A DNA stretch of 64,000 nt from Turritopsis dohrnii (Eukaryota; Cnidaria; Hydrozoa; Anthoathecata; Oceaniidae): positions 1,240,001 to 1,304,000 of the forward strand of contig BQMF02000032.1 in assembly GCA_027922465.2 (NCBI GenBank), read 5' to 3'. Positions within the stretch are counted from its first letter, which is position 1, and each line of letters opens with the position of its first letter. The notes under the pieces were generated by a model. That model made no database searches. It was not told where the DNA came from and saw only the letters and a program-made list of their open reading frames with translations. This document shows, piece after piece, positions 1 through 19,520 of the stretch. The position numbers were made by a program, and so were the translations under genes.

Positions 1-175
1 CATGTCATGTGAGTTTCATATCTAGTATTGTATTTTTCATTATTTCAAAACATATTTTAGAAATTCTGTTTACGTTGATTTAGACGATGGTATTGAAACC
101 AATGAAGACAGTTGTTGTTCCGAAATTAGCACTCAAGAATACTTTGGGGGAGATGAAGAAGAAGATGTAAAATGA
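1..175 (+). CDS. Small acidic protein, 3' part (copy A)
   Basis: End of a three-exon gene whose first exon is cut off by the window edge. Positions 1 to about 14 match the end of exon 2 in copy D (near 15,868). An intron with a TTTTAG acceptor follows, then a last exon ending at TGA 173-175. The last exon is rich in D and E and has a Cys-Cys pair; no known domain is visible. The gene converges on the recombinase, whose stop lies at 237, only 61 bp away. The exon 2 donor is ambiguous: the best-looking GTGAGT donor would place a stop at the splice junction, while a weaker GTTTCA donor keeps the acidic frame open. Function unknown. Confidence 0.5.
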
Positions 176-236
176 TTTTAATGAATTTAATTTATATAAC
201 TTATTTCCTTCAAACGAAATAACAAATAGTCGTTCT

Positions 237-2093
237 TTACAAATTTACAGAAGGGCTCGTGTTGCGTTTAAATGTCAGAGATTCTGCGCGCATCCGCAGT
301 GAGTCTTTATTTCGACAAGGGTGAAACGAGTATTCAGAATCCTTAAGTATAAGGCTCCAGCGACCTTTTCCATATTTGGAAATACCTCTACTCAAAAACA
401 CGTCTTCGTCTTTTGTAAATTTCACTTTCGAGGAAACTTTTAACTTTTCGTGAACGACTTCCTTTTTTAAATCGACGTCGAAACTTATTCGAGATCTGAA
501 TGCTGGATCTACTTGTATTTCGGCATTACAGTTGCTTTCGGGATTGCACGGAATGGTGTTTGTTATTGTAACATCATCGTCATCGTTCGTGTCGTCAGTA
601 ACTTGAGGTGAAGAACTGCTACAAGGTTGCGACAATATCGTTTCGGCTTGATCGAGTACTTGCTGATCGAAGGAACGCGCCGTGTTGTTGATTGATCTTA
701 AAACGTCCATCATGCCTGCACTCACTTCTTTTCGTTTGTTTCCAACCAGTTTCTCCATGCATTGCTTGCTGCGTGAAGCAACGTCTCTCGACAAACTCTT
801 TTGATAGGCTACTTTCGCCACGTGAGAACTGTGCTTTTGGTCACGTGAAACGATTTCTCTTTCCGATTGGCTGAGTCTTTCCGCACTTTCCGTTTCCACA
901 ATTTGTCGATAGCGAGTCGGATGTATATATTTGCCAATAGCTTCGTGGACGAGGACGCTCATGGCTGACGAGAACGCGGTGTATTGCTTTCCCTTGTTTG
1001 TAACGAGCAAATAGTCGCAGTTAGGATTTAGTTTCGGTCGCACTAACTGGATATAAAAATCGAGAATCTCCATAGTTTCGGAATCGAGAATCACAGTGTC
1101 AAATAAATATCTATCGGCAGTTTTGAATTCCTTCTGGTCGATGTAACCACCATTGGTCTTTGCTTTATTAATCATTTCTATAGTTAAGTATTGATAGGTC
1201 ATTGGTCTGGAGCACTTAACTCGAACAAATAAATACGTAGCAATAAATCTCGTTGCAAACGCCAGTTGAGATGCCGACACGTTTCGTTCTTCTCTGCATT
1301 CTTGCAAGATGTCTCGGAAACGATTGATGTGATATGGGATGACGTTTTCCATTTCGTCCAAGGTCGCCCAACTGTTTCGAGCAATGAGCGTTTCCAAATC
1401 CAGGTTGCGAGAATACTCGAGTCTCTTTCTCTTTCCCAGATTTTCTTTACCACGTCGTATGTAAACTTCGGTGACCGCAAAACAGCGTAATGTACTGTCG
1501 GATACACCATTCGCTTTTCGAAAGTCAAGTATGTCTGATATTGATTTTAAGTAATTTAACGACGCCGAACAACTTAGTTTCCAATCTTCTTCAAGAGTTT
1601 TAAGGAAGTCCATAATGATGGAGGGTGTACCCAAGCAACAATCGACAAATTCTTCGGTTAAACACGATTCTGATTCGAGGTCGTCAAAACTAGCCATTAA
1701 AAATTTCATACATCGTTGTGCAGATTGTTTGGCTTCTTTTTCAGACTTCCCTCCTCCACATGGTGTACGCAGCCAGTTGCAAAACGTCTTTCCAATACCA
1801 TCGTTAATAGAAAATGAAGGCTTGTGTGCTGTACATACTTTCTTTCTGATTGGCTGTTGTGCCTCGACTTCTTCCCTTTTGATATCTGGAGCTTCGTCAA
1901 AATAGTAATACCAACAATGCTTGACATCGATATGCTTGCGTAAACCTCGACTGCTTTTAAAACCAATGTGTAGGCAATTTTGCACTGGACAGATGTAAAT
2001 ATTTCTATCGTTTGGACGTAATACCAACTTTCTCTTGTGTTTAGCAGCACCATTGATTCCAACCCAGTTCACAACTAATGTTCTCTTCGACAT
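237..2093 (-). CDS. C2H2 / tyrosine recombinase / Myb-SANT protein, intact (copy A)
   Basis: Open frame of 618 codons without introns. The N-terminus carries one C2H2 finger (C35, C40, H54, H59). The middle looks like a tyrosine recombinase of Crypton type: an Arg near 296 (motif CSRP), H391-x-x-R394 (HPTRYR), H421 (DQKHSSH) and a candidate nucleophile Y430 (VAYQ). A Ser/Asp-rich linker follows, then a Myb/SANT-like repeat from about 558 with F559, W579 and the KYGKGRW motif. Such enzymes cut and rejoin DNA through a 3'-phosphotyrosine. The start is the first Met, shared with copy D. Transcription diverges from the helicase-like gene at 2,387. Assignment of the catalytic residues is by pattern; an exapted DNA-binding protein is the alternative. 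Confidence 0.75.
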   Translation of the reverse strand: MSKRTLVVNWVGINGAAKHKRKLVLRPNDRNIYICPVQNCLHIGFKSSRGLRKHIDVKHCWYYYFDEAPDIKREEVEAQQPIRKKVCTAHKPSFSINDGIGKTFCNWLRTPCGGGKSEKEAKQSAQRCMKFLMASFDDLESESCLTEEFVDCCLGTPSIIMDFLKTLEEDWKLSCSASLNYLKSISDILDFRKANGVSDSTLRCFAVTEVYIRRGKENLGKRKRLEYSRNLDLETLIARNSWATLDEMENVIPYHINRFRDILQECREERNVSASQLAFATRFIATYLFVRVKCSRPMTYQYLTIEMINKAKTNGGYIDQKEFKTADRYLFDTVILDSETMEILDFYIQLVRPKLNPNCDYLLVTNKGKQYTAFSSAMSVLVHEAIGKYIHPTRYRQIVETESAERLSQSEREIVSRDQKHSSHVAKVAYQKSLSRDVASRSKQCMEKLVGNKRKEVSAGMMDVLRSINNTARSFDQQVLDQAETILSQPCSSSSPQVTDDTNDDDDVTITNTIPCNPESNCNAEIQVDPAFRSRISFDVDLKKEVVHEKLKVSSKVKFTKDEDVFLSRGISKYGKGRWSLILKDSEYSFHPCRNKDSLRMRAESLTFKRNTSPSVNL

Positions 2094-2386
2094 TTTTAAA
2101 ACTTTTTTATTTTATTTAAAAACATTTTTTATAACTTTAAACATATGACTTTTAACTTAACGATTTACACAAATAAAAAACGATAACTTAGTTCTTTAAA
2201 CTTGAATGACATATTTATACCGTAATGCGTTTCGCAGGAGAGTCATTTAGTCATTCCTTTTTACAAAGGAACAATGTACTCCATTTTAATAGTATACACG
2301 AACTGTTCCATTACAAAAAGAATAGTTCGTGCCTTACGTAGTGAACAATTAAGACTTAATGAAAAGGAAACATTTTGGAGTGCGCG
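2094..2386. promoter_or_regulatory. Divergent intergenic region between recombinase and helicase-like genes
   Basis: These 293 bp separate two start codons that face away from each other. The stretch is AT-rich and is conserved almost base for base in copies B (8,085-8,376) and D (17,964-18,256). It probably serves as a bidirectional promoter and 5' leader. This is inferred from arrangement and conservation; no specific factor site was identified. Confidence 0.4.
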
Positions 2387-5300
2387 ATGGAAGAAAACGA
2401 TCCTGTTAAGACACTCCATATCGATCTCCACAGTAGTGAACAAACTTTTCATTCACAAAAGAACGAGAGTGCACGATTTGTATAACAATGAAACACGGAG
2501 AATGTTATAGACTATTAAGGAACAATTAAGCGTGTCAAACTCTGTTCTTTGACAGTTCACTGTCCAAATATTCTCAAGGGCTTTTCAACAAGAGTTTGAA
2601 TGGAAAAAACAACCCGAGTAAAAATTATAAAGCTACAATAAGTTAGTTGACAAGAAACTGTTCTCTTCGCGTGTATATGATGGCACAGCCGGCAAAACAA
2701 TTAAACTCGAAGAAACTCGAAAGTTCTTTAATGCGAAATATTGTGGCGGGGGTATGTATACATTGACTATCTCACATTTTTTTTTATGTCGTTTGATACA
2801 ATAGCTGAAATTTATATGATGGGTCTCAGTATGTGGGTTATTATACAAGGCTGCATTTTGTATTTGCTTTAGGTGATTTCTAAGTTCACAGTTATCTGTA
2901 TTCGTGCTACTTGGAATAAAGACCTCCAAGTAGTGAAGCAATTGATTTCAAATAAGCGCCTTGTCATTGACAAGGCAATTGGAGAGACTGCTGGGGTGCA
3001 GTTTTTTGTCTCCTGCATAACAGGAACGAGTACCAATGAAAAAACGCACGACAAATGCGGAAATAACAATGTCAGACCTGGTATAGGTTATTTTATTGTT
3101 GGTTGTGGTGTTACCGAGTCGACATTATTTCAAATTTTACATGACACGCACTTTGATGTTGATATTTCACAGGTAACATCAGTACTATTATTTATATGTG
3201 ACGGTTTGAGGGAAAATCATAACAAGTGATAATTTCTGATAAATTTATCAGTAAAATACTGATTAGAAAACAATAGATTTAATCAGTAATTCGTTCGATT
3301 TATCAGTAATTTGTTAGATGAATCAGTAATTACTGATAAAATAATCGGTAAATACTGATAAATAATCAGTAATTTATCAGTATTACTGATTATTTATCAG
3401 TATTACTGATTCATCGAACGAATTACTGATTCATCGAACAAATTACTGATAAATCGAACAAATTACTGATAAATCGAACGAATTACTGATTATTTATCAG
3501 TATTACTGATTATTACTGATAAATTTCTGATAAATTACTGATTAATTTATCAGTAATATCACTTGTTATGATTTTCCCTCAAACCGTCACATATTAAGTT
3601 AATTTCTAAGGACAGCCAGTCAGTTTAAATTACGTATTCTTTTAGATTAGACCAAAAGCAAAAGGCGACGACTTTAAAGACGTGCTTATAAAGCAACTGA
3701 AAATAATAGTGAAGGTATATAAGTTGATAATAGCTCTAGCTGTTCATTAATGTTCTTACTGACAAGTGGCTGAATAGAATTGATATTTGACTTTTCATAG
3801 GACCATAAAAGCAGTTATGCAACGAACCTGATGAGGGAGAGTGTGCTACACTGTCTCAGTTTAGTGAAGAAGGATGCCCAGAAGAAGGATCTTTTGCTGC
3901 AGCCATGTTTTCTCGAGTTTGACAAGAATCCATGTAGATTAGTTGTAGTTGAATCAAGTTTATTGGAAAGCATGAAAAATGCTGTAGCCAATTTAAACAG
4001 CGACGGCTTTTTGGTATCATTAGTAGTAGAAAACCGTCCCGTTGCTGTTAATACGCAACAGCCAACGACTACTCTGGGAAGAACATTGACAGCTATTGAG
4101 CGTTGTCTGAAGGAGTCGAATCATGCACTGTACAGAGGTGGCATTTACTGTCGTTTCGAAAAAGGTCAGTTCGTTATTTACTGACACGTCATCAAAGGCT
4201 TTAATTGACAATAGCTAACAGTCTTTTTATTCTGTCTAGCTGAGTTTGCATACAAGTATATGTGTTCTGCTGAAGATTATTTGAACATGCTGCTAGCTGT
4301 ACCGGCGTTACAGGAGGACATCGTGAAGTCTTGGTCTACCATCAATAAAATGCTTCAAAATGTTTACTGTGAGGTATGTCCATAACACATAAATCAAATG
4401 AAATTCTCCTTTTCATCCCCAAACAAAGATACTTTTATTTATTACTGTTCAGGTAATATCGCAGATCTCGTTTGACGAAGATTTAATTGAAATACAAGAC
4501 GGGAAGTGCTTTAAATTGTCGAGCAGACAGTTCATCAAAACGCCCTTGCTCAAAGATGTACACCTTGGAGTTGTATCACCACGCTGTTTTGTGTCATTTT
4601 CTACCAGAAATATGGGTGATGGTGGCTTCTTTGCAACATCAGTCGTTAACTCTTTCCCAGAAATGACGGAGAGAGTTAACTTCTTAAACAAGTTCTACCA
4701 ATGCCTTTTGGTGGGTCAATTGCCATTAAAAACAAGAAAGTTGGTCGTTATTGGCCCTAGAGATTCTGGTAAAAGTTCGTGGGCGAACGTTTTGTTCGGG
4801 TATGCCACGTAATAGAATTGCGTGCATATCCAAGGAGAAAACGTTTGGGTTTTCGATGATAGAGGAAGATACCCAGTTAGTCTTCATAGAATAGAATGGT
4901 CGTCTGAAATGTTTGGAAGTGACATGGCAAAAGTCTTCCTCCAAGGTAAACTGTTCTTTGTTGATTTTAGTTCTATTTAGCTATGTCACAGTTATTTCAT
5001 TTACCTTCATTTTTCTATATTAGGGGGTATATTCACCCAATCGGTGAAACACAAGAATCCGAGAGTAATGAAAAACGATGCTGGAATCTATGATGACGTT
5101 TTGTGTCAAGAGTTTTCCTCCATTGCCAGTGGTATTTAGTTTTCTTTATTGTGACTGTAACAGCAGTTGTGAATGCTCAAATGTTTTTGTGAGTTCACCG
5201 GTGATAATAGCAGTATTATTATTTCTAATAAGAGTCAAATGAGGAAATCGACATCGTTGTGGCTAAGAAAAGACGTGCTGCAAGACGAATCGACAGTGAA

Positions 5301-6247
5301 AGTTCCGATGACGCAGAAGGTAACGGATTTTTAAATTGAAAGAGCTTAAGATTTTTTCAAGCCGTCTGTGTTAGGAATAAAAATTTGAGTTCGAACTCTT
5401 TTGTTTCAGTTGGCCCAAGTGGATGGATGCCAAAAAATACTGAAGCTGTTTCGAAAGAAACCATGCATTGTGTCAAAGGTATGTATGCAAATTGGCATCT
5501 AAAATACTCAACAAAAAGCATATTTATTATGAGACTTTGCTGTTAAAAATTATAGAAAACAAGATAAATGATGGAAGTTGCGAAACTGATGCAACGATAG
5601 AAGATTTTCAACAACACCATGGTTTTTAGACATTTGTTTCTTGAATAATGCTTAAACTTATTCATCTTTTATTACACAAACATATAATTGAATAACAATT
5701 TAGGCCAAGTCGACGTTGGCATTAATGGAGACAACTTGTTACAACATACTGCGCATCAAGAAAATACAGGTAACTATGTTAACCAAGGCATCATGAAAGT
5801 AAAATCACCACTTCAATTCCCTAAACTTAACAAGTATTTTCTTAACATTTTTAGTGAGACAGGAGTTCGGAGAGCGAATTCGACAGCTACGACGCGACAA
5901 TACCGTCCAGGAAGAAATTCTCGTTGTCTGAAGTCAACAGTCATGAATATCTAAGAGAAGTCAAAAGGGTTATTCTAAACGAAATGGATATGCCACCGGG
6001 AGAATCCTTAACGGGAAGAAGATATTTGGGTTTTTGTCAGAGATATGACAAAAATCTGGGGAGATTTTATCGAGGTGCAGACCCTAAATATGATGCGTGG
6101 ATGTGCATCAAGGGTGAAAACAGATTTGTCTTTGATGCTTTCAAATTTTTTCAAAAGTATCCGTCTGTCACAGAGAAAATCAAAAAACTGCGACACAAAT
6201 GTAACGTAAGAATAACGGATAAGTTCGAAGAATTGAAAGATGTATGA
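2387..6247 (+). pseudogene. Multi-exon SF3-helicase-like gene, copy A, frame-damaged
   Basis: Fourteen exons fit GT-AG junctions with matching phases: 2387-2479, 2556-2617, 2655-2751, 2873-3172, 3646-3714, 3801-4164, 4240-4373, 4453-4945, 5024-5131, 5233-5319, 5410-5478, 5556-5621, 5704-5769 and 5855-6247, about 800 codons. Exon 8 carries a Walker A loop (GPRDSGKSSW, near 4,752-4,780) after a hydrophobic beta strand. An acidic Walker B-like strand follows near 4,880, and exons 8-9 give a LQGG..TQSVKHKNP stretch resembling the B' region of superfamily 3 helicases. Two small indels between 4,799 and 4,895 shift the frame out and back, so a stop falls inside the ATPase core. Motif C is not visible, and the frame is lost again near 5,925. 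The N-terminal third is unrecognised. Origin-unwinding helicase is the family inference. Confidence 0.6.
3197..3591. repeat. Palindromic MITE with ATTACTGAT repeats, in an intron
   Basis: A 395-bp insertion sits in the intron between helicase exons 3172 and 3646. Its ends are inverted repeats starting TGTGACGGTTTGAGGG and flanked by TA on both sides. The interior is almost wholly ATTACTGAT / ATCAGTAAT units, many joined by TCGAACGA-like spacers, so the whole element can fold on itself. It looks like a Tc1/mariner-type MITE. It codes for nothing. Confidence 0.7.
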
Positions 6248-6374
6248 AAACATCGCTTCTACATTATCTAGATACAGGAATATTTTAAGTTTCATGACAC
6301 CACAGATAGAAAACACGATGAAATACCTCCCTTGTTGTTTGGCACCAGCTCCTTCTTCGAAAACATATCACCTA
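6248..6374. other. 3' flank of helicase-like gene
   Basis: Non-coding sequence between the last helicase stop and the first hairpin-array unit. No clear polyadenylation signal was assigned. Confidence 0.3.
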
Positions 6375-7905
6375 AAACCATTAGCAACGCTTGCCTCGTT
6401 GTGGAAACGAGCCTCTCTTTCATTATATGTCGGTCACGTCTCTTTAGATTGTAGTGTGACGTAGCATTCATTGGTGCGCATGCCATTAGAGGACGTTCAA
6501 ATTGACTAAGTATAGCGCAGAAATCAACACATTGGCATATTATATGGAAGCCCGTCTTATTGAATGGAAGCCCGTGGGAAGCCCGTGAGAAGCCCGTCTT
6601 TTCTATAAGGGTTTGACCAGAAGCCCAGAAGCCCGTCCTTTTCACAGCATTTATAAAACTAAACATAGCCTTTGCATCTACTTTCAGCAAGAATCCAGGC
6701 TGCGACAGATATTAGTTTGTGTGCAAAAAAGACGGGCTTCTGGGCTTCTGGTCAAAATCTTATAAAAAAGACGGGCTTCCCACGGGCTTCCACGGGCTTC
6801 CACGGGCTTCTGTTATAAGGTGCATTTGGCAAAGGTTACGTTGACTCAATATGATCTACCACTTTGACTTTGATTTTGCACATGTGTTTGATTACAAAAG
6901 CGCCTAGCAACGATAGCCTCGTTTTGAATCTGAGCTTCGTTTTGGTTTATAACCGGTCACATTTACTTGGACAGTTTGTAGGAATCGTTATTGGTGCGGA
7001 AGTTACATGAGCACTTCAAAATTGACATATTGGGGAGCGGAAATTGGCAAATAGGCGCGTAATGTGGAAGCCCGTCTTTTTGAATGGAAGCCCGTGGGAA
7101 GCCCGTGAGAAGCCCGTCTTTTTTATAAGGGTTTGACCAGAAGCCCAGAAGCCCGTCTTTTTCACAGCATTCATAAAACTAAAACACAGCCTGTGCGTAG
7201 ACCTATAAAAGGAATCCAGGCTGTGGAAAATATTAGTTGGTGTGCAAAACGACGGGCTTCTGGGCTTCTGGTCAAACTCTTATAAAAAAGACGGGCTTCC
7301 CACGGGCTTCCACGGGCTTCGGCGGGCTTCCATTCTAATGGTTATATTTTTCAAAGTTTATGTTAGCTCTTCGTCATGGCTCCAGTTTGCATTACCAGGA
7401 AACCATTAGCAACGCTTGCCTCGTTGTGGAAACGAGCCTCTCTTTCATTATATGTCGGTCACGTCTCTTTAGATTGTAGTGTGACGTAGCATTCATTGGT
7501 GCGCATGCCATTAGAGGACGTTCAAATTGACTAAGTATAGCGCAGAAATCAACACATTGGCATATTATATGGAAGCCCGTCTTATTGAATGGAAGCCCGT
7601 GGGAAGTCCGTGAGAAGCCCGTCTTTTCTATAAGGGTTTGACCAGAAGCCCAGAAGCCCGTCCTTTTCACAGCATTTATAAAACTAAACATAGCCTGTGC
7701 ATCTACGTTTAACAAGAATCCAGGCTGCGACAGGTATTAGTTTGTGTGCAAAAAAGACGGGCTTCTGGGCTTCTGGTCAAACTCTTATAAAAAATACGGG
7801 CTTCCCACGGGCTTCCACGGGCTTCCACGGGCTTCTGTCATAGAGTGCATTTGGCAAAGGTTATGTTGACTCTATATCATCTAACACCTTGACTTTAATT
7901 TTGCA
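6375..7905. repeat. Hairpin array 1: three units of GAAGCCCGT iterons
   Basis: Three tandem units of about 510 bp lie downstream of the helicase-like gene. Each has a spacer with a GCCTCGTT...GAGCC block, then a long hairpin (about 6546-6811, 7066-7332 and 7571-7836). The left arm of each hairpin carries about five direct copies of GAAGCCCGT; the right arm carries the reverse complement ACGGGCTTC in matching number, around a loop of roughly 90 bp. Units 1 and 3 are nearly identical (6,375 matches 7,400), while unit 2 has diverged in its spacer. Open frames here are by-products of the repeat. Possible roles are helicase-binding iterons at a replication origin or a recombination site; both are inference. 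Confidence 0.75.
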
Positions 7906-8084
7906 CATGTCTTGACATCGATATGCTTGCGTAAACCTCGACTGCTTTTAAAACCAACGTGTAGGCAATTTTGCACTGGACAGATGTAAATATTTCTATC
8001 GTTTGGACGTAATACCAACTTTCTCTTGTGTTTAGCAGCACCATTGATTCCAACCCAGTTCACAAATAATGTTCTCTTCGACAT
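7906..8084 (-). pseudogene. Recombinase N-terminus, fragment (copy B)
   Basis: Start codon and first 58 or so codons of the recombinase, including the C2H2 finger, near-identical to copy A. Homology stops abruptly at 7,906, where hairpin-array sequence begins, so the catalytic domain is missing. The break marks a deletion or a recombination junction between two copies. Confidence 0.85.
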
Positions 8085-8376
8085 TTTTAAAACTTTTTTA
8101 TTTTATTTAAAAACATTTTTTATAACTTTAAACTTATGACTTTTAACTTAACGATTACACAAATAAAAAACGATAACTTAGTTCTTTAAACTTCAATGAC
8201 ATATTTATACGGTAGTGCGTTTCACAGGAGAGTCATTTATTCATTCTTTTTGACAAAGGAACAATGTATTCCTTTTTAGTAGTATACACGAACTGTTCCA
8301 TTACAAAAAGAATAGTTCGTGCCTTACTTAGTGAACAATTAAAACTTAATGAAAAGGAAACATTTTGGAGTGCGCG

Positions 8377-9228
8377 ATGGAAGAAAACGATCCTGATACG
8401 ACACTCCATATCGATCTCCACAGTAGTGAACAAACTTTTCATTGACAAAAGAACAAGAGTGCACGATTTGTACAACATTGAAACATAAAGAACATTATAC
8501 AGTGTGTTTCAAAATGATTGCAATGGAAATTTTAAAGTTGTTTTTCTCAGTAAGTATATCGAATTTTGAAATAATTTTTACATCAATCGAAAGCCCTTTT
8601 TGAGATCTTTCGCCAAGTATATTTTTGTGAGAAATGAAAAAGTGGTTTTCGAGAAAACAAGGAAAATGTCTTGGAAAATTGTCATTAAATTTTTAATGGT
8701 CGATTAACACGTAGTTTAATTACATCGTGTTTATTGTTTCAAAGCACTGAATCCATTCAAATTTTTATTAATTTTATGTTTGCACCGAGACCCCCAAATT
8801 GATATTTTAAAACATAAAAGTTAAACGTTTTTCATGAACACACGGCTTAAACTTGTTCATTGTTTGCCAAATTGCTGTTATTGTTTGAAAAAATCTTTTC
8901 TTTTCATTGACGTCTTAATCGACCATTAAAAATTTAATTACATTTTTCCAAGACATTTTCCTTGTTTTCTCGAAAACCACTTTTTCATTTCTCACAAAAA
9001 TATACTTGGCGAAAGATCTCAAAAAGGGCTTTCGATTGATGAAAAAATTATTTCAAAATTCGATATACTTACTGAGAAAAACAACTTTAAAATTTCCATT
9101 GCAATCATTTTGAAACACACTGTAGATAATTAAGGAACAATTACGCGTGTCGAACTCTGTTCATTGACAGTTCACTGTCAAACTATTCTCAAGGGCTTTT
9201 CAACAACAGTTTCAACGTGAAAATATAA
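8377..9228 (+). pseudogene. Helicase-like gene exons 1-2 (copy B), interrupted
   Basis: Exon 1 (8377-8469) matches copy A from the same ATG but has an in-frame TGA where A has a Ser codon. Exon 2 begins at 9171 after a preserved GACAG acceptor. The intron between them is split by the 623-bp MITE. Sequence continues to 9,251 and resumes at 11,105 beyond the DD41D element. Non-functional. Confidence 0.75.
8500..9122. mobile_element. 623-bp MITE sharing its tips with the DD41D element
   Basis: Long terminal inverted repeats of over 200 bp leave a small unique centre. The outermost 17 bases, CAGTGTGTTTCAAAATG, equal those of the neighbouring 9252-11104 element; the rest differs. TA lies on both sides, and copies A and D show the empty site (GTTATAGACTATTAAGG). 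No coding sequence. It is probably moved by a DD41D-type transposase. Confidence 0.9.
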
Positions 9229-9638
9229 CGTGAGTGAAAGTTAGAAAGCTACAGTGTGTTTCAAAATGTCTTATCCGCCAACTTTCAAGGCGTATATCTC
9301 ATTACATGTCTTATAAAATATTGGGAATTTTATATCACAAGAAAGAGCTTTTCATGCTCTATCCGTTAATATAAAATGTGTGCCAAAATATTTGTTCTTC
9401 GAAAAGATATTGAAGAAAACCTCAACGATTTGGTTCATTGAATTCTTAAAAGTCAATTAACTGACATGCTAATGACTTTTTAATGGTGTAAGTTTCTTTT
9501 GTTGTGCTGATGAAACCTTTAGAAAGTTTTAAGTATAGATTTGCGTATTACTTTCCCACAACAATTAATCGGACAAGTTGCAAATTAAAAATGTTTTTCT
9601 GTTAAAAGTATTGACACACGGGACATCAAAATAAAGTC

Positions 9639-10181
9639 ATGCCGCATCTCTCAATACAGCAGCGAACGTTTTTAGTAGACACTTTTCAGAGGACACAAAA
9701 TTATGATCAAGTTCTTCAAGAGTATCAAAGAAGATTTCCTGGGTCACCAGTGCCTCATAAAAAAACCATTTCCTGGAACGTTAAAAAGTTTTTGAGAACT
9801 GGGACTGTACGTAATTTACATAAAGAACGTTGTGGTAGAAGAAGAACTGGTAGGTCGGCAGGAAACATAAACGTGGTAAGAAATGTTCTTGCTAATAATC
9901 CAAATGCAACCACGCGGAACAATCCATCAGGATTACCATTTGCTACGTTTAACAGAATTACGCGACTTGATTTGCAATACCATCCTTTTAAAATTTTTGT
10001 ACGGCATGAACTCAAACCTGGCGATTTTAGACGCCGTGTTCAGTTTTCACAGTGGTTTCAAAATGCAAACAGAAATCTTAGATTTATTTACAACCTTGTA
10101 ATCGGGGACGAATGCTCATTTGGATTAAATGGTTCCGTTTCGACACAAAATGTAAGAATGTATGCACCGAAGGGTCAGCCG

Positions 10182-10212
<31 letters not shown>

Positions 10213-10749
10213 TTTAATTATGATAAAAGAAATGACCGGAGCAAAGTAAATGTATGGGCAGCACTGTGTGGAAATGGCTCAGTAATAGGGCCATACGTTT
10301 TTAATGGAAATGTTAACGGACGGACTTATTTAGAAATGATAAATAACTTCGCAATTCCGGAATTAAGTCAAATTTATAATGTAAATGTTGCAAATGGAAA
10401 CCATGAAGTTTGGTGGGCGCAGGATGGAGCCACTCCCCATAGAACAAGGCAAGTCAGAGGAAGGCTTATACAGGTCTTCCGTAATCATGTTATTGGTCTT
10501 GGTCATGGTGTGGAGTGGCCTGCTCGCTCTCCTGATCTAACCCCATGTGACTTTTTTCTTTGGGGGTATATAAAACAGAAGGTTTTCACGTCACCTCCTC
10601 AAAATTTGCATGCCTTAACAAGAAAAATCACAGACGCTTTCAACGAACTGAAGCGAAATCCAGGTATGGTTAGAAATGCATTCCGTGAAATGCAGAGAAG
10701 ATCACAACAATGCCTGGCAAACCAAGGACATCATGTTGAAGGGCATTGA
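9639..10749 (+). pseudogene. DD41D transposase, frameshifted at a C31 tract
   Basis: The first frame (9639-10217) has an N-terminal helix-turn-helix region followed by a basic RRR linker and the first catalytic Asp in the motif IGDECSF (codon 10107-10109). The second frame (10162-10749) has the second Asp in WWAQDGATPH (10423-10425) and the third in SPDLTPCDFFLWG (10549-10551). Forty-one residues separate the last two, the spacing of the rosa-like DD41D group. The two frames differ by one base and meet at a run of 31 C. A tract shorter by one, or longer by two, would join them into about 370 codons. The cut-and-paste activity is known for the superfamily. The frame break may be real or a sequencing error in the homopolymer. 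Confidence 0.9.
10182..10212 (+). repeat. Homopolymer run of 31 C inside the transposase
   Basis: Codes for polyproline, or shifts frame according to its length. It lies where relatives have a short loop after the first catalytic Asp, so the tract is probably an expansion of a short Pro/Gln stretch. Confidence 0.9.
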
Positions 10750-11106
10750 TTCTCTTTTTCTTTATCCTTGTGTTGTTTTTTTAAGTTGTTGCTTTTTTAT
10801 CTAGCGTTTACATAGACCCTTAGATATTTTTTTTATTGTGTGATGATTTTTAACTTTTTTATTGTGTTTACAAATGGCCTTCATTGTAAATTGAATTAAT
10901 TGACTTTTAAAAATTCAATGAACCAAACCGTTGAGTTTTTCTTCAATATCTTTTCGAAGAACAAATATTTTGGCACACATTTTATATTAACGGATAGAGC
11001 ATGAAAAGCTCTTTCTTGTGATATAAAATTCCCAATATTTTATAAGACATGTAATGAGATATACGCCTTGAAAGTTGGCGGATAAGACATTTTGAAACAC
11101 ACTGTA

Positions 11107-11220
11107 CAATAAGTTAGATGAATAAATTGTGTTCCCTGCGCATCGATTATAAATTACATGGTTTAATGAGGGGGAAGAAACTTGATGCATTATTTTATTG
11201 TCATTAGTCTGCACATGTAT
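11107..11220 (+). pseudogene. Helicase-like gene exon 3 remnant (copy B)
   Basis: Resumes copy B beyond the DD41D insertion and aligns with copy A 2,636-2,760 (CAATAAGTTAG and onward) with many substitutions and small indels. It runs into array 2. The rest of the helicase-like gene is deleted in copy B. Confidence 0.55.
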
Positions 11221-12831
11221 GAGGGTTTCAAGACTTAATCATCAACCAGTCACCAGACAAAGCATTACTTTTACATCTATGGAGCCCGTGATTTTGCCTT
11301 GGAGCCCGTCCTGAGCCCGTATGGAGCCCGTCTTTTCTACAAGGGTTTGACTGTGAGCTCGTGAGCCCACCTTTTTCAGAGAAATTGTATTTCTATCAAT
11401 AGTCTGCATATTTAAGAAGGTTCAATCACTAGACTAAACGATCTACCTTTGAAAATTTACTTTCTCTGAAAAAGACGGGCTCACGGGCTCACAGTCAAAC
11501 CTTTGTAAAAAAGACGGGCTCCTCACGGGCTCAGGACGGGCTCCACTGTCAAATGGCGGGCTCCATAGATATAAAAGTAATGCTTTGACTGGTGATTTGG
11601 CAACACGAAGCCATGATAGTTGCCATCACTACAACACTAACAAAAGCCTCGTTTTCACGTCGAGCCTCTTTATCTTTTATTTAGGTCACAGTCTATGTCA
11701 TAATTCATAGACTGTGCACACTGTAAAGATATTGGCATATCAAGGCCACCATTTCAGAGTTGTCTTTTGAATAAAGAAGTCAAAATCAGCTGATTACAGT
11801 GGCGCCCGTGATTTTGCCTTGGAGCCCGTCCTGAGCCCGTATGGAGCCCGTCTTTTTTACAAGGGTTTGACTGTGAGCCCGTGAGCCCGCCTTTTTCAGA
11901 GAAATTGTATTTCTATTAATAGTCTGCATATTTAAGAAGGTTCAATCACTAGACTAAACGATCTACCTTTGAAAATTTACTTTCTCTGAAAAAGACGGGC
12001 TCACCGGCTCACAGTCAAACCTTTGTAAAAAAGACGGGCTCCTCACGGGCTCAGGACGGGCTCCACTGTCAAATGGCGGGCTCCATAGATATAAAAGTAA
12101 TGCTTTGACTGGTGATTTGGCAACACGAAGCCATGATAGTTGCCATCACTACAACACTAACAAAAGCCTCGTTTTCACGTCGAGCCTCTTTATCTTTTAT
12201 TTAGGTCACAGTCTATGTCATAATTCATACACTGTGCACACTGTAAAGATATTGGCATATCAAGGCCACCATTTCAGAGTTGTCTTTTGAATAAAGAAGT
12301 CAAAATCAGCTGATTAAAGTGGCGCCCGTGATTTTGCCTTGGAGCCCGTCCTGAGCCCGTATGGAGCCCGTCTTTTTTACAAGGGTTTGACTGTGAGCCC
12401 GTGAGCCCGCCTTTTTCAGAGAAATTGTATTTCTATCAATAGTCTGCATATTTAAGAAGGTTCAATCACTAGACTAAACGATCTACCTTTGAAAATTTAC
12501 TTTCTCTGAAAAAGACGGGCTCACGGGCTCACAGTCAAACCTTTGTAAAAAAGACGGGCTCCTCACGGGCTCAGGACGGGCTCCACTGTCAAATGGCGGG
12601 CTCCATAGATATAAAAGTAATGCTTTGACTGGTGCTTTGGCAACACGAAGCCATGATAGTTGCCATCACTACAACACTAACAAAAGCCTCGTTTTCACGT
12701 TGAGCCTCGTTATTGTTTATTTAAGTCACAGTCTATGTCATAATTCATAGATTGCGCACGGAATAAGATCATTGGCATATCAAGGCCATCATTTCATAGT
12801 TGTCTCTTGAATGAAGAAAGTAATATCAGCT
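11221..12831. repeat. Hairpin array 2: three units of GAGCCCGT iterons
   Basis: Three tandem units of about 520 bp (starts near 11281, 11802 and 12322). Each has a left arm with repeated GAGCCCGT, a loop that includes TTTCTATCAATAGTCTGC, and a right arm with ACGGGCTC in matching positions. A spacer follows with the same GCCTCGTT...GAGCCTC and GGTCAC blocks as array 1. In unit 1 the palindrome also covers flanks reading CACCAG...AAAGCATTACTTTTA. The layout matches array 1 but the iteron has one A fewer, on both arms. Units 1 and 2 are almost identical; unit 3 diverges toward its end, where the acidic gene of copy C begins. Confidence 0.75.
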
Positions 12832-12985
12832 GGGTGGGCACTATGCCAAACTCCTCCCCTTGTTGCTTAGTCAATGATTTCCTAAAAATAATATAGTAAC
12901 CTAGGAACGAATTGGATCATTTTCAATGGATATTCTCTGACAGACTTACATATACTTCCTCTTTGCAAAATTTCTACGCAGCAAT

Positions 12986-13467
12986 ATGGATGGTTTCGAC
13001 GAAAGTGACTTGATGGAATCTTTAAACTGTCAAATACACGTTTACAGCGATGAAGATGACGTTATGGAAATTTTAATGGGCCCTTTGGAAACTCCACCTG
13101 AGCTCACCGAAAGGTTGGTGTGGTGGCCTTATAGTGAAGAGCTCAGTGACGAAGATGATGAAGAAGGTTAGCTGTACTCCCTAGTGTCTTTGACTTTTTA
13201 AAAGGTGTTGCATTTATAATTAACTTAAGTTCTTTTAATAATCTTACAGAAAACAACAAAAAAGGCGAACAGATTATTGCAATGGATGACGATCATGTGC
13301 TTGAGTTTCATATCTAGTATTGTATTTTTCATGTTTTCAAAACATATTTTAGAAATTCCGTTTACGTTGATTTAGACGATAGTATTGAAACCAATGAAGA
13401 CAGTTGTTGTTCCGAAATTAGCACTCAAGAATACTTTGGGGGAGATGAAGAAGAAGATGTAAAATGA
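12986..13467 (+). pseudogene. Small acidic protein gene (copy C), exon 2 deletion
   Basis: Exon 1 (12986-13166) starts with ATG and encodes about 60 residues, strongly acidic, with an LVWWPYSEE motif and a D/E-rich end. Its donor is GGTTAGC. Exon 2 begins after an ACAG acceptor near 13,251. Compared with copy D, about 20 bp including the exon 2 donor are missing near 13,306, between short GAG repeats. The last exon ends with TGA 13465-13467. With the donor gone, normal splicing is unlikely. No known domain. Confidence 0.6.
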
Positions 13468-13528
13468 TTTTAATGGATTTAATTTATATAACTTATTTCC
13501 TTCAAACAAAATAACAAATAGTCGTTCT

Positions 13529-15386
13529 TTACAAATTTACAGAAGGGCTCGTGTTGCGTTTAAATGTCAGAGATTCTGCGCGCATCCGGAGTGAGTCTTT
13601 ATTTCGACAAGGGTGAAACGAGTATTCAGAATCCTTAAGTATAAGGCTCCAGCGACCTTTTCCATATTTGGAAATACCTCTACTCAAAAACACGTCTTCG
13701 TCTTTTGTAAATTTCACTTTCGAGGAAACTTTTAACTTTTCGTGAACGACTTCCTTTTTTAAATCGACGTCGAAACTTATTCGAGATCGGAATGCTGGAT
13801 CTACTTGTATTTCGGCATTACAGTTGCTTTCGGGATTGCACGGAATGGTGTTTGTTATTGTAACATCATCGTCATCGTTCGTGTCGTCAGTAACTTGAGG
13901 TGAAGAACTGCTACAAGGTTGCGATAATATCTTTTCGGCTTGATCGAGTACTTGCTGATCGAAGGAACGCGCCGTGTTGATGATTGATCTTAAAACGTCC
14001 ATCATGCCTGCACTCACTTCCTTTCGTTTATTTCCAACCAGTTTCTCCATGCATTGCTTGCTGCGTGAAGCAACGTCTCTCGACAAACTCTTTTGATAGG
14101 CTACTTTCGCCACGTGAGAACTGTGCTTTTGGTCACGTGAAACGATTTCTCTTTCCGATTGGCTGAGTCTTTCCGCACTTTCCGCTTCCACAATATGTCG
14201 ATAGCGAGTCGGATGTATATATTTGCCAATAGCTTCGTGGACGAGGACGCTCATGGCTGACGAGAACGCGGTGTATTGCTTTCCCTTGTTTGTAACGAGC
14301 AAATAGTCACAGTTAGGATTTAGTTTCGGTCGCACTAACTGGATATAGAAATCGAGAATCTCCATAGTTTCGGAATCGAGAATCACAGTGTCAAATAAAT
14401 ATCTATCGGCAGTTTTGAATTCCTTCTGGTCGATGTAACCACCATTGGTCTTTGCTTTATTAATCATTTCTATAGTTAAGTATTGATAGGTCATTGGTCT
14501 GGAGCACTTAACTCGAACAAATAAATACGTAGCAATAAATCTCGTTGCAAACGCCAGTTGAGATGCCGACACGTTTCGTTCTTCTCTGCATTCTTGCAAG
14601 ATGTCTCGGAAACGATTGATGTGATATGGGATGACGTTTTCCATTTCGTCCAAGGTCGCCCAACTGTTTCGAGCAATGAGCGTTTCCAAATCCAGGTTGC
14701 GAGAATACTCGAGTCTCTTTGTCTTTCCCAGATTTTCTTTACCACGTCGAATGTAAACTTCGGTGACCGCAAAACAGCGTAATGTGCTGTCGGATACACC
14801 ATTCGCTTTTCGAAAGTCAAGTATGTCTGATATTGATTTTAAGTAATTTAACGACGCCGAACAACTTAGTTTCCAATCTTCTTCAAGAGTTTTAAGGAAG
14901 TCCATAATGATGGAGGGTGTACCCAAGCAACAATCGACAAATTCTTCGGTTAAACACGATTCTGATTCGAGGTCGTCAAAACTAGCCATTAAAAATTTCA
15001 TACATCGTTGTGCAGATTGTTTCGCTTCTTTTTCAGGCTTCCCTCCTCCACATGGTGTACGCAGCCAGTTGCAAAACGTCTTTCCAATACCATCGTTAAT
15101 AGAAAATGAAGGCTTGTGTGCTGTACATACTTTCTTTCTGATTGGCTGTTGTGCCTCGACTTCTTCCCTTTTGATATCTGGAGCTTCGTCAAAATAGTAA
15201 TACCAACAATGCTTGACATCGATATGCTTGCGTAAACCTCGACTGCTTTTAAAACCAATGTGTAGGCAATTTTGCACTGGACAGATGTAAATATTTCTAT
15301 CGTTTGGACGTAATACCAACTTTTCTCTTGTGTTTAGCAGCACCATTGATTCCAACCCAGTTCACAACTAATGTTCTCTTCGTCAT
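13529..15386 (-). pseudogene. C2H2 / tyrosine recombinase / Myb protein (copy C), N-terminal frameshift
   Basis: Same protein as copy A with all recombinase and Myb motifs kept. The original start codon is present at 15384-15386, but an extra T near 15,322 shifts the frame after about 20 codons. An overlapping Met at 15,355 in the alternative frame could still start a 608-codon protein that keeps the zinc finger. The sequence directly upstream of the start codon is copy D's left end, so the usual promoter is absent. Probably silent. Confidence 0.75.
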
Positions 15387-15540
15387 GGGTGGGCACTATG
15401 CCAAACTCCTCCCCTTGTTGCTGAGTCAATGATTTCCTAAAAATAATATAGTAACCTAGGAACGAATTGGATCATTTTCAATGCATATTCTCTGACAGAC
15501 TTACATATACTTTCTCTTTGCAAAATTTCTACGCAGCAAT

Positions 15541-16043
15541 ATGGATGGTTTCGACGAAAATGACTTGATGGAATCTTTAAACTGTCCCATACACGTTTAC
15601 AGCCATGAAGATGACGTTATGGAAATTTTAATGGGCCCTTTGGAAACTCCACCTGAGCTCACCGAAAGGTTGGTATGGTGGCCTTATAGTGAAGAGCTCA
15701 GTGACGAAGATGATGAAGAAGGTTAGCTGTACTCCCTAGTGTCTTTGACTTTTTAAAAGGTGTTGCATTTATATTTTACTTAGGTTCTTTTAATAACCTT
15801 ACAGAAAACAACAAAGAAGGCGAACAGATTATTGCAATGGATGACGATCATGTGCTTGAAGAGTACATCATGTCCTGTGAGTTTCATATCTAGTATTGTA
15901 TTTTTCATGTTTTCAAAACATATTTTAGAAATTCCGTTTACGTTGATTTAGACGATGGTATTGAAACCAATGAAGACAGTTGTTGTTCCGAAATTAGCAC
16001 TCAAGAATACTTTGGGGGAGATGAAGAAGAAGATGTAAAATGA
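15541..16043 (+). CDS. Small acidic protein gene, complete (copy D)
   Basis: Three exons. Exon 1 is 15541-15721, with ATG in a run that is identical upstream in copy C. Exon 2 starts at 15805 and ends at 15876 (GTGAGT donor) or 15880 (GTTTCA donor). Exon 3 starts at about 15929 and ends with TGA 16041-16043. With the GTTTCA donor the product is about 125 residues and very rich in D and E, with LVWWPYSEE in the middle and a CC pair near the end. With GTGAGT it stops at the junction after about 85 residues. It converges on the recombinase gene, which ends at 16105. Always linked to the recombinase, it may be an accessory or regulatory factor; function unknown. Confidence 0.6.
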
Positions 16044-16104
16044 TTTTAATGGATTTAATTTATATAACTTATTTCCTTCAAACAAAATAACAAATAGTCG
16101 TTCT

Positions 16105-17963
16105 TTACAAATTTACAGAAGGACTCGTGTTGCGTTTAAATGTCAGAGATTCTGCGCGCATCCGGAGTGAGTCTTTATTTCGACAAGGGTGAAACGAGTA
16201 TTCAGAATCCTTAAGTATAAGGCTCCAGCGACCTTTTCCATATTTGGAAATACCTCTACTCAAAAACACGTCTTCGTCTTTTGTAAATTTCACTTTCGAG
16301 GAAACTTTTAACTTTTCGTGAACGACTTCCTTTTTTAAATCGACGTCGAAACTTATTCGAGATCGGAATGCTGGATCTACTTGTATTTCGGCATTACAGT
16401 TGCTTTCAGGATTGCACGGAATGGTGTTTGTTATTGTAACATCATCGTCATCGTTCGTGTCGTCAGTAACTTGAGGTGAAGAACTGCTACAAAGGGGTGC
16501 GACAATATCGTTTCGGCTTGATCGAGTACTTGCTGATTGAAGGAACAAGCCGTGTTGTTGATTGATCTTAAAACGTCCATCATGCCTGCACTCACTTCCT
16601 TTCGTTTATTTCCAACCAGTTTCTCCATGCATTGCTTGCTGCGTGAAGCAACGTCTCTCGACAAACTCTTTTGATAGGCTACTTTCGCCACGTGAGAACT
16701 GTGCTTTTGGTCACGTGAAACGATTTCTCTTTCCGATTGGCTGAGTCTTTCCGCACTTTCTGTTTCCACAATTTGTCGATAGCGAGTCGGATGTATATAT
16801 TTGCCAATAGCTTCGTAGACGAGGACGCTCATGGCTGACGAGAACGCGGTGTATTGCTTTCCCTTGTTTGTAACGAGCAAATAGTCACAGTTAGGATTTA
16901 GTTTCGGTCGCACTAACTGGATATAGAAATCGAGAATCTCCATAGTTTCGGAATCGAGAATCACAGTGTCAAATAAATATCTATCGGCAGTTTTGAATTC
17001 CTTCTGGTCGATGTAACCACCATTGGTCTTTGCTTTATTAATCATTTCTATAGTTAAGTATTGATAGGTCATTGGTCTGGAGCACTTAACTCGAACAAAT
17101 AAATACGTAGCAATAAATCTCGTTGCAAACGCCAGTTGAGATGCCGACACGTTTCGTTCTTCTCTGCATTCTTGCAAGATGTCTCGGAAACGATTGATGT
17201 GATATGGGATGACGTTTTCCATTTCGTCCAAGGTCGCCCAACTGTTTCGAGCAATGAGCGTTTCCAAATCCAGGTTGCGAGAATACTCGAGTCTCTTTCT
17301 CTTTCCCAGATTTTCTTTGCCACGTCGTATGTAAACTTCGGTGACCGCAAAACAGCGTAATGTGCTGTCGGATACACCATTTGCTTTTCGAAAGTCAAGT
17401 ATGTCTGATATTGATTTTAAGTAATTTAACGACGCCGAACAACTTAGTTTCCAATCTTCTTCAAGAGTTTTAAGGAAGTCCATAATGATGGAGGGTGTAC
17501 CCAAGCAACAATCGACAAATTCTTCGGTTAAACACGATTCTGATTCGAGGTCGTCAAAACTAGCCATTAAAAATTTCATACATCGTTGTGCAGATTGTTT
17601 CGCTTCTTTTTCAGGCTTCCCTCCTCCACATGGTGTACGCAGCCAGTTGCAAAACGTCTTTCCAATACCATCGTTAATAGAAAATGAAGGCTTGTGTGCT
17701 GTACATACTTTCTTTCTGATTGGCTGTTGTGCCTCGAATTCTTCCCTTTTGATATCTGGAGCTTCGTCAAAATAATAATACCAACAATGCTTGACATCGA
17801 TATGCTTGCGTAAACCTCGACTGCTTTTAAAACCAATGTGTAGGCAATTTTGCACTGGACAGATGTAAATATTTCTATCGTTTGGACGTAATACCAACTT
17901 TCTCTTGTGTTTAGCAGCACCATTGATTCCAACCCAGTTCACAACTAATGTTCTCTTCGACAT
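16105..17963 (-). pseudogene. C2H2 / tyrosine recombinase / Myb protein (copy D), broken in linker
   Basis: The first 510-codon frame (16431-17963) has the same start as copy A, the C2H2 finger and the full recombinase block. Two extra bases near 16,490 (CAAAGGGGTGC against CAAGGTTGC in A) shift the frame in the Ser-rich linker. The Myb repeat is left in a separate frame at 16105-16548. A truncated product would keep the catalytic part but lose the C-terminal DNA-binding repeat. Confidence 0.85.
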
Positions 17964-18256
17964 TTTTAAAACTTTTTTATTTTATTTAAAAACATTTTTT
18001 ATAACTTTAAACATATGACTTTTAACTTAACGATTTACACAAATAAAAAACGATAACTTAGTTCTTTAAACTTCAATGACATATTTATACCGTAGTGCGT
18101 TTCGTAGGAGAGTCGTTTATTCATTCCTTTTTACAAAGGAACAATGTATTCCATTTTAATAGTATACACGAACTGTTCCATTACAAAAAGAATAGTTCGT
18201 GCCTTACGTAGTGAACAATTAAGACTTAATGAAAAGGAAACATTTTGGAGTGCGCG

Positions 18257-18487
18257 ATGGAAGAATACGATCCTGTTAAGACACTCCATATCGATCTCCA
18301 CAGTAGTGAACAAACTTTTCATTCACAAAAGAACGAGAGTGCACGATTTGTATAACAATGAAACACGGAGAACGTTATAGACTATTAAGGAACAATTAAG
18401 CGTGTCAAACTCTGTTCATTGACAGTTCACTGTCAAAATATTCTCAAGGGCCTTTCAACAAGAGTTTGAATGGGACAAACAACCCGA
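18257..18487 (+). pseudogene. Helicase-like gene exons 1-2 (copy D), truncated
   Basis: Exon 1 (18257-18349, 31 codons) and exon 2 (18426-18487) keep the splice sites and phases of copy A, which supports the gene model. Homology to the element ends near 18,512, in the next intron. The ATPase part is absent. Confidence 0.75.
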
Positions 18488-18512
18488 GTAAAAATTATAA
18501 AGCTACAATAAG

Positions 18513-18985: not shown

Positions 18986-18993
18986 ACACAATA

Positions 18994-19410
18994 CCTTAAA
19001 GGATTTTTTTTGCGTGGATTAAGTTTTGCAACTTTTGCGAATTTTGGTCAAATTCGCAAAAATAAATCCACGCAAAACGTCAAGACATGAACGATTTGCG
19101 AAAATAAATCCACGCAAAATTTCATGAAATTTTTGGCTCATTTTATGGCTCTGCGTACCTTTCGTATATTAACTATTTCTTTGTACTTATCAAGCACCCA
19201 TTCGTTTTGCAGTGTGGCAGGCATGGAAATGGTAATTTTTGCTGCTACTTCTAAGCATTATAAATTACGCGCATTGCACTTTGCCCATTTGCAAATATAA
19301 ATCCAAACATTTTCCTTGAGAGGCTCTGTCTCGAAAAAATTAATTCACCCAAAATGCTCTCAAACCTTAGCTCGCAAAAATTAGTCTACGCAAAAAAAAT
19401 CCCCTTAAGG
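18994..19410. repeat. TA-flanked MITE
   Basis: Inverted ends CCTTAA.GGATTTTTTTTGCG, about 30 bp with mismatches, and TA on both sides. The interior repeats AAATAAATCCACGCAAAA several times in both orientations. Non-coding, 417 bp. Confidence 0.75.
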
Positions 19411-19520
19411 TATATCATGTTCGAAAAGAACATTTTCTTACAGATCCTAACAAAGTTTTATTTGTCTTTTCTTGCTCATTGGTGTTATTTATAGACTCCA
19501 TGGAAGTGGTAATATGCAGA

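Follow-up and report, generated by a model that had tools for sequence, protein, structure and literature searches.

Integrative plasmids and mobilisable islands of bacteria combine an initiator, an iteron origin and a tyrosine integrase with attP and attB sites, and they integrate in tandem. The polyomavirus T antigen acts on an origin that contains inverted clusters of short binding sites. Cryptons are tyrosine-recombinase transposons without reverse transcriptase; in some groups a C48 peptidase gene is added and the termini carry short direct repeats (Kojima and Jurka 2011, PMC3212892). Helicase, Myb, C2H2 and palindrom- are absent as words from the main text of that paper. Polinton-like viruses and virophages unite a helicase of superfamily 3 (SF3) and a tyrosine recombinase (YR) with capsid and packaging genes (PMC4642659), and SF3 helicases similar to papillomavirus E1 are found in RepE1 CRESS-like contigs (PMC11071296). 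Here we analyse a stretch of 64,000 bp from Turritopsis dohrnii (C32:1240001-1304000; contig BQMF02000032.1 of a genome assembly of 435.9 Mb in 891 contigs), hereafter the window. Its first 18.5 kb contain three pieces of one element family, which unites iteron arrays and the genes of an SF3 helicase and a recombinase-like protein in one unit, as an earlier note on this DNA had proposed in calling it a composite mobile element. In our view the family probably represents animal DNA transposons that are organised like replicons and lack a capsid. The genome carries about 100 copies of this jumping element, whose build resembles that of a plasmid.

The design is unusual for an animal transposon. 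It shares with Cryptons the principle of a recombinase transposon and the lack of terminal inverted repeats; an open reading frame (ORF) scan of one copy (C84, see below) shows no reverse transcriptase, which applies to the comparison with DIRS and Ngaro elements as well. It differs from Cryptons by the C2H2-like and TRF-like Myb domains of its recombinase, by the SF3 helicase and by the iteron arrays, and 30 aligned members of its YR family matched neither a Crypton-derived domain nor Phage_integrase in Pfam-A. Like the genomes of Polinton-like viruses and virophages, it joins an SF3 helicase and a putative tyrosine recombinase in one eukaryotic mobile unit, but the scanned C84 copy has no room for a capsid gene. 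With E1, T antigen and the RepE1 contigs it has in common an SF3 helicase with E1 similarity, whereas here a recombinase-like gene is linked to it, integration takes place at fixed ends and no capsid is seen. Unlike bacterial plasmids and islands, it has spliced eukaryotic genes, and the sole sequence relation to them that was seen is a weak match of the helicase to P4-type primases. Judged by titles and the opening of abstracts, the literature searched, which did not cover Repbase, describes no animal element that combines YR with an SF3 helicase and lacks a capsid, and the element may already be catalogued.

Unit and termini of the element

The window was compared with 20 stretches (L-numbers) around other genomic copies. 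The unit runs from the left end through the helicase gene (+), the hairpin array and the acidic gene (+) to the recombinase gene (-) and the right end. A complete copy of about 8.56 kb on C236 shows this order: a repeat end joined to TTAG, helicase exons H2, H4, H6 and Hc, the array, the acidic gene, the YR gene and finally ACAATAAG joined to GTA. The same order is found at C84:676.1-684.7 kb, where the neighbours share both junctions, and helicase exons also lie left of the array in the upstream stretches of C71, C189 and C236.

The acidic gene, the C2H2/YR/Myb gene, the spliced P-loop gene and the hairpin arrays listed by the earlier note were all found in the window. The four copies of one layout that it described can be recognized for parts of the layout, but the P-loop gene occurs only once in the window, whereas the YR gene occurs three times plus a fragment. 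We rejected the order acidic gene–YR–helicase (the P-loop gene), which the note took as the unit: the TAAG at 2639-2642 is a head-to-tail junction leading from the right end of one copy to the left end of the next. The element ends differ from that layout as well, the boundaries in the window being 2643-11113 and 11114-18512. The features are the following (window coordinates, strand, description).

84..175, +, first element, final exon of its acidic gene; the left part is outside the window
237..2093, -, intact YR gene, 618 aa, with N-terminal C2H2-like finger, catalytic-type residues R296 K324 H391 R394 H421 Y430 and C-terminal Myb domain (TRF-like)
2635..2642, +, first element, right terminus, reading ACAATAAG; TAAG (2639-2642) is the junction core
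2643..11113, +, second element, helicase-bearing and decayed; acidic gene and most of the YR gene lost, two later transposon insertions
2680..6247, +, spliced, decayed gene of an SF3-type helicase, starting 37 bp inside the second element
2680-2750, 2873-3172, 3646-3714, 3801-4164, 4240-4373, 4453-4800, +, helicase exons, with more beyond
6375..7910, +, hairpin array type 1, with 28 ACGGGC iterons and TTC after each
7907..8084, -, 5' fragment of the YR gene of the second element
8085..11113, +, right-end region of the second element, split by a miniature inverted-repeat transposable element (MITE, ~8500-9124) and a Tc1-like element (~9252-11105)
11114..18512, +, third element, short form without helicase; acidic-YR part internally duplicated, junction at 15386
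11250..12831, +, hairpin array type 2, with 28 ACGGGC iterons, 26 followed by TCA/TCC and 2 by GCC
12986..13467, +, acidic gene, duplication copy 1, middle exon altered
13529..15386, -, YR gene copy, start cut off by the duplication junction
15541..16043, +, acidic gene, duplication copy 2, exons 15541-15721, 15805-15876 and 15952-16043; 114 aa
16105..17963, -, YR gene copy, frame broken
18505..18512, +, right terminus ACAATAAG of the third element, followed by host GTA

The first element begins to the left of the window, and it probably includes a helicase match located there, at C32:1234674-1235015. A small acidic gene adjoins each of the three long YR copies in the window. The segment 12831-17963 is a tandem duplication of the acidic-YR part, whose junction at the YR start codon (15386) removed the start of one copy.

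At the right boundary, ...TATAAAGCTACAATAAG, homology between copies ends sharply, and the DNA beyond is either unique or begins with TTAG(T/C). We read 24 right ends, of which 11 face host DNA and 13 a TTAG start; the host-facing ends are followed by GTA in eight cases, the remaining three by CCG, TTA and GCA. A genome-wide search for the right-end pattern AAAGCTACAATAAGNTA gave 100 exact matches, against 1 for the reversed control. The bases after these ends are GTA in 50 (the host side), TTA in 49 (mostly the next element) and CTA in 1, and a right end is present at the expected place for 58 of the 71 YR genes scored below.

A start codon lies shortly inside TTAG in the window copy, L028, L023, L020 and L026. 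In the window this codon starts the helicase gene, L028 and L023 read alike, and helicase exons follow downstream of TTAG in L028, L020 and L026. Thus the helicase is part of the next element, of which TTAG is the left end. The left-end pattern TCCCTTAAGTTAG was picked only after left ends had been read; at 11 of its 28 matches, which include at least five of the ends read before, a YR gene lies on the side and strand predicted. By eye, the left end TTAGTTGAC... does not match the reverse-complemented right end CTTATTGTAG..., i.e. there are no terminal inverted repeats.

Integration target and recent movement

All six host-facing left ends that were read (L023, L024, L028, L031, L035 and L047) lie at the end of a GCGAAA-rich repeat, which reads TTCCCTTAAG in five of them and a variant in L035. 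Uninterrupted copies of the repeat end with CTTCCCTTAAGGTA and start with its reverse complement. The target motif CTTCCCTTAAGNTA has 1769 exact matches genome-wide versus 15 for the control; among the 100 matches listed, 20 pairs are at most 1 kb apart and all 20 are in -/+ order, as are the terminal inverted repeats of MITEs. The element thus splits TAAG from GTA at such a repeat end, where host and element have TAAG alone in common. Integration thus looks site-specific around TAAG, at the end of a MITE-like repeat. One type of joined ends, AGCTA-CAATAAGT-TAGCT, consists of inverted arms around an 8-bp spacer; such an arrangement is frequent in recombinase sites. Site-specific head-to-tail integration fits the circular integrating form imagined in the earlier note.

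Over 2642 bp, window copy A shows 100.0% identity to the copy on C71. In addition, nine of the scored YR genes, including that of the window, tie for the top score with 100% protein identity. These identical copies indicate that the family moved recently.

The recombinase-like gene

The YR protein begins with a C2H2-like region and ends with a Myb domain that is closest to telomere-repeat factors; a middle domain lies between the two. Its family is large, with 1027 relatives, and Clytia hemisphaerica is represented among the best 120. We aligned the window protein with 29 of these best 120 hits (alignment A1). R296, K324, R394, H421 and Y430 are invariant in all 30 members, and position 391, that of the box-II histidine, is His in 9 of the 30, including the window copy. 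The spacing R296-28-K324-67-391-3-R394-27-H421-9-Y430 is inside or close to the range of Cre (28/88/3/23/9) and lambda Int (23/73/3/22/9), measured between residues of the fetched genes that we take to be the catalytic ones. Shuffling of the invariant columns yielded such a catalytic pattern in 103 of 20000 trials. The tblastn search of phages and the pattern scans of contigs gave nothing informative on YR. In three diverged copies, the ratio of non-synonymous to synonymous divergence (dN/dS) is 0.06-0.10 at dS values of 0.9-2.0, which reveals selection on the protein.

From the catalytic residues and the junctions, we infer that the enzyme is a tyrosine recombinase. The junctions, with no inverted repeats, a short shared core and head-to-tail joins, are the stronger argument. 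One further copy (L029 1349-3170) is 87-94% identical to the window YR over its main parts and is spread over several frames with uneven dN/dS, higher in parts than in the three copies above, which suggests recombination or decay. The neighbouring acidic protein, 114 aa long in one copy, has no match in Pfam.

The helicase gene

We found 34 relatives of the helicase, including an entry from Clytia hemisphaerica, and aligned 30 of them (alignment A2). Of the 30 members, 23 show a match to PF00519 (papillomavirus E1) with an E-value of 0.1 or lower, the best being 4.5e-7, and 16 show one to DUF5906. The top match of the family profile in the PDB is human papillomavirus E1 (1tue, E 0.009). The window's own copy, which is broken inside and after the ATPase exon, gives no match to an SF3 family when searched alone. 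Judged by these sequence matches, which are weak for E1, the family is SF3. Exon 6 is constrained in one pair of copies (L041, dN 0.07, dS 1.1); a close pair differing by 11 changes (L039) has a dN/dS of 0.48, and the other diverged pairs are saturated.

E1-like helicases occur in sea anemone CRESS-like contigs with high-copy rearranged integrations, as PMC11071296 describes, and Polinton-like viruses and virophages can hold S3H together with a tyrosine recombinase, according to PMC4642659. Both observations would suit endogenous DNA virus genomes (RepE1 CRESS-like, adoma- or Polinton-like) whose capsid genes were lost or never shown. The ORF scan of one helicase-bearing copy (C84; L028 5131-10000 and L029 1-3733; frames of at least 80 codons) detected helicase exons, YR pieces and overlapping shorter frames. 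No capsid or packaging ATPase gene was recognised in this copy. The gaps between its genes, in which no homology search was made, all measure less than about 0.6 kb and could not accommodate a capsid gene, and the 190-codon frame at the place of the acidic gene gives no match with the acidic query. Pattern scans of IMG/VR returned no YR relative. We rejected a viral origin on the basis of the missing capsid-gene space in this single copy, and regard it as quite unlikely.

A helicase intron of the window (3195-3593) contains an A/T-rich fold-back repeat with repeated TTACTGATAA, 34-bp inverted ends and a folding z-score of -19.9. This palindrome is a separate repeat outside the make-up of the element; it was considered as the origin of the element and rejected, as the L028 sequence at that place is without it.

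Linkage of helicase and recombinase in the genome

Genome-wide linkage was analysed with the best 71 of 1006 YR candidates from the same genome, of which 63 have no internal stop, and with 149 matches to helicase exon 6 (150 scored); 138 of the 149 rows were used for pairing, 11 short or split rows being dropped. A helicase exon-6 match lies within 12 kb of 26 of the 71 scored YR genes. This leads to 30 pairs, versus 0.54 expected under even scatter, and all 30 share the same orientation; the helicase is left of 19 YR genes and right of 10. Since related, tandem and recent copies are not independent, these counts are a description and not a P value. Short copies without helicase are frequent. 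In those of the arr3 type, a decayed remnant at the left end still matches helicase exon 1 of C236, so they resemble forms that arose by internal deletion. Many helicase matches of 40-54% identity with no scored YR nearby are found on C79, C13, C95 and other contigs, and possibly represent further element lineages.

The abundance of helicase-less YR copies, and the presence of a much more diverged helicase in the right flank of several young YR copies, would also be expected if a helicase element, or a remnant of a helicase-bearing virus, were distinct from a Crypton-like YR transposon and the two merely became adjacent by sharing an integration hot spot. In C236 and C84, however, a single pair of termini surrounds helicase, array and YR gene. 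The helicase start lies inside the TTAG left end in five reads, its decayed start persists in the arr3 short form, and the orientation is shared by 30 of 30 pairs. Mere adjacency is therefore highly improbable.

Hairpin arrays, iterons and module exchange

The folding of one array unit from each of three types gave z-scores of -16.5, -20.1 and -10.8 (100 dinucleotide shuffles), versus 0.6 for a control stretch of the YR gene. ACGGGC iterons were found in 13 of 14 stretches scanned; the background is 3 in 45.4 kb, and neither the helicase gene nor the YR gene contains any. Three units were mapped; in these, five or six iterons in one direction are followed by four to six in the opposite one, with a spacing of 7-12 bp within tight clusters and gaps of 20-39.

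The bases following the iteron differ between elements: TTC in the helicase-bearing element of the window (28 of 28), TCA/TCC in C133 and C338, TAC in C84 (27 of 29), and CA in C71, C189 and C236. Helicase exon 6 is identical to that of the window at 83% in C133, 77% in C338, 78% in C84 and 68% in C236, while C133 and C338 are each 68% identical to C236. The iteron suffix tracks the helicase type across about seven elements; the pairing of helicase and array in C338, which are 5.8 kb apart, is less certain. From the acidic gene to the right end, the DNA of C133 (L026) and C338 (L021) is 95.7% and 95.5% identical to that of the C71 copy, and other arr2/arr3 pairs range from 92.2% (L025) to 95.7%. 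The YR of the C84 TAC element is more diverged (87-94% protein identity). The combination of 68%-identical helicases with about 95%-identical recombinase modules indicates that two cassettes are being exchanged. The ACGGGC array is probably a replication origin bound by the helicase.

An ordinary Crypton-like element, moving by cut-and-paste or copy-out, would require neither origin-driven replication by its helicase nor an origin function of the arrays, which could be regulatory or target-immunity sites. The abundance of recent helicase-less copies speaks for such an element, as it implies that the helicase is unnecessary in cis. Conversely, helicase type and iteron suffix co-vary while the YR module is nearly constant, as predicted by the pairing of an initiator with its origin, and helicase exon 6 is constrained in the L041 pair. 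We consider this explanation unlikely.

Proposed mechanism and its weight

The replicon-like transposon that we favour would consist of two modules. The left one would provide the initiator, a helicase of the SF3 type, together with its probable origin, the palindromic iteron array; the right one would provide the acidic protein, a C2H2/Myb-tethered tyrosine recombinase and the right end. The recombinase may excise the element as a circle, with ...ACAATAAG joined to TTAG.... The helicase would then assemble on its cognate ACGGGC array and recruit host polymerases, and the circle would be copied. Circles could be reinserted by the recombinase at TAAG in the terminal repeat of the MITE-like repeat (TTCCCTTAAG followed by GTA) or, alternatively, at the end of a resident copy, producing head-to-tail arrays. 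Helicase-less copies might supply array and recombinase in cis and use a helicase in trans.

Several observations weigh against this reading. Neither circles nor replication were observed. Position 391 is Asn in 21 of the 30 aligned YR members; no recombinase match of YR was obtained in Pfam, PDB, NCBIfam or PHROGs, and its hhalign comparison with Cre and lambda Int was not significant. The profile searches suggested in the earlier note therefore had a divided outcome, SF3 families matching the helicase relatives and nothing naming YR a recombinase. P4-type primase models (NCBIfam and PHROGs) match two of three helicase relatives, the Clytia one matching nothing, so that SF3 membership stands while a special link to E1 does not follow. 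Separate occurrence of YR and P-loop genes, which the note had named as contrary evidence, was encountered in part: the 12 kb on either side of 45 of the 71 scored YR genes are free of helicase exon-6 hits, and only 23 of the 138 helicase hits are near a scored YR, the remaining 115 having none within 12 kb, a figure inflated by the scoring of only the best 71 of 1006 candidates. As for the ends, GTA is lacking at 3 of the 11 host-facing right ends read; one of the three, that of C407 (L015), also figures in the 49 ends followed by TTA, of which at least this one is without a following TTAG. The left-end pattern TCCCTTAAGTTAG has 28 matches versus 16 for the reversed control, and 17 of the 28 are without YR, about the control level. 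Finally, part of L034 is without iterons, L016 and L027 show mixed suffixes, mostly CTA/CTG, and the relation of helicase type to suffix is based on about seven elements.

If the replicon-like reading is correct, an animal genome harbours many recently moved elements that replicate like a small DNA virus or plasmid and move without particles, possibly including a non-viral relative of the viral SF3 initiators. It would also contain a naturally occurring integrase that acts site-specifically on a short target (TAAG in CTTCCCTTAAGGTA), and origin-initiator and integration cassettes that exchange as modules. The Clytia hemisphaerica entries in both protein families indicate that this is not an oddity of one genome. 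More tentatively, as a possibility that we hold with some reserve, these elements may form a class of their own among the mobile DNA of animals: plasmids that reside in the chromosome, integrate and replicate autonomously, with an exchangeable initiator–origin cassette and recombinase–attachment-site cassette, with an iteron specificity that switches by lineage like bacterial incompatibility groups, and with MITE ends as safe landing sites.

Other repeats in and next to the cluster

The insertion at 9252-11105, which lies at a TA, looks like a Tc1-like transposon. Its ends read CAGTGTGTTTCAAAATG, and it has two ORFs that overlap where 31 C stand in a row. The MITE at ~8500-9124 has the same ends. 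A MITE-like repeat, whose relatives with CTTCCCTTAAGNTA ends act as landing sites, lies just right of the cluster at 18991-19412 and has the ends TACCTTAA...CCTTAAGGTA.

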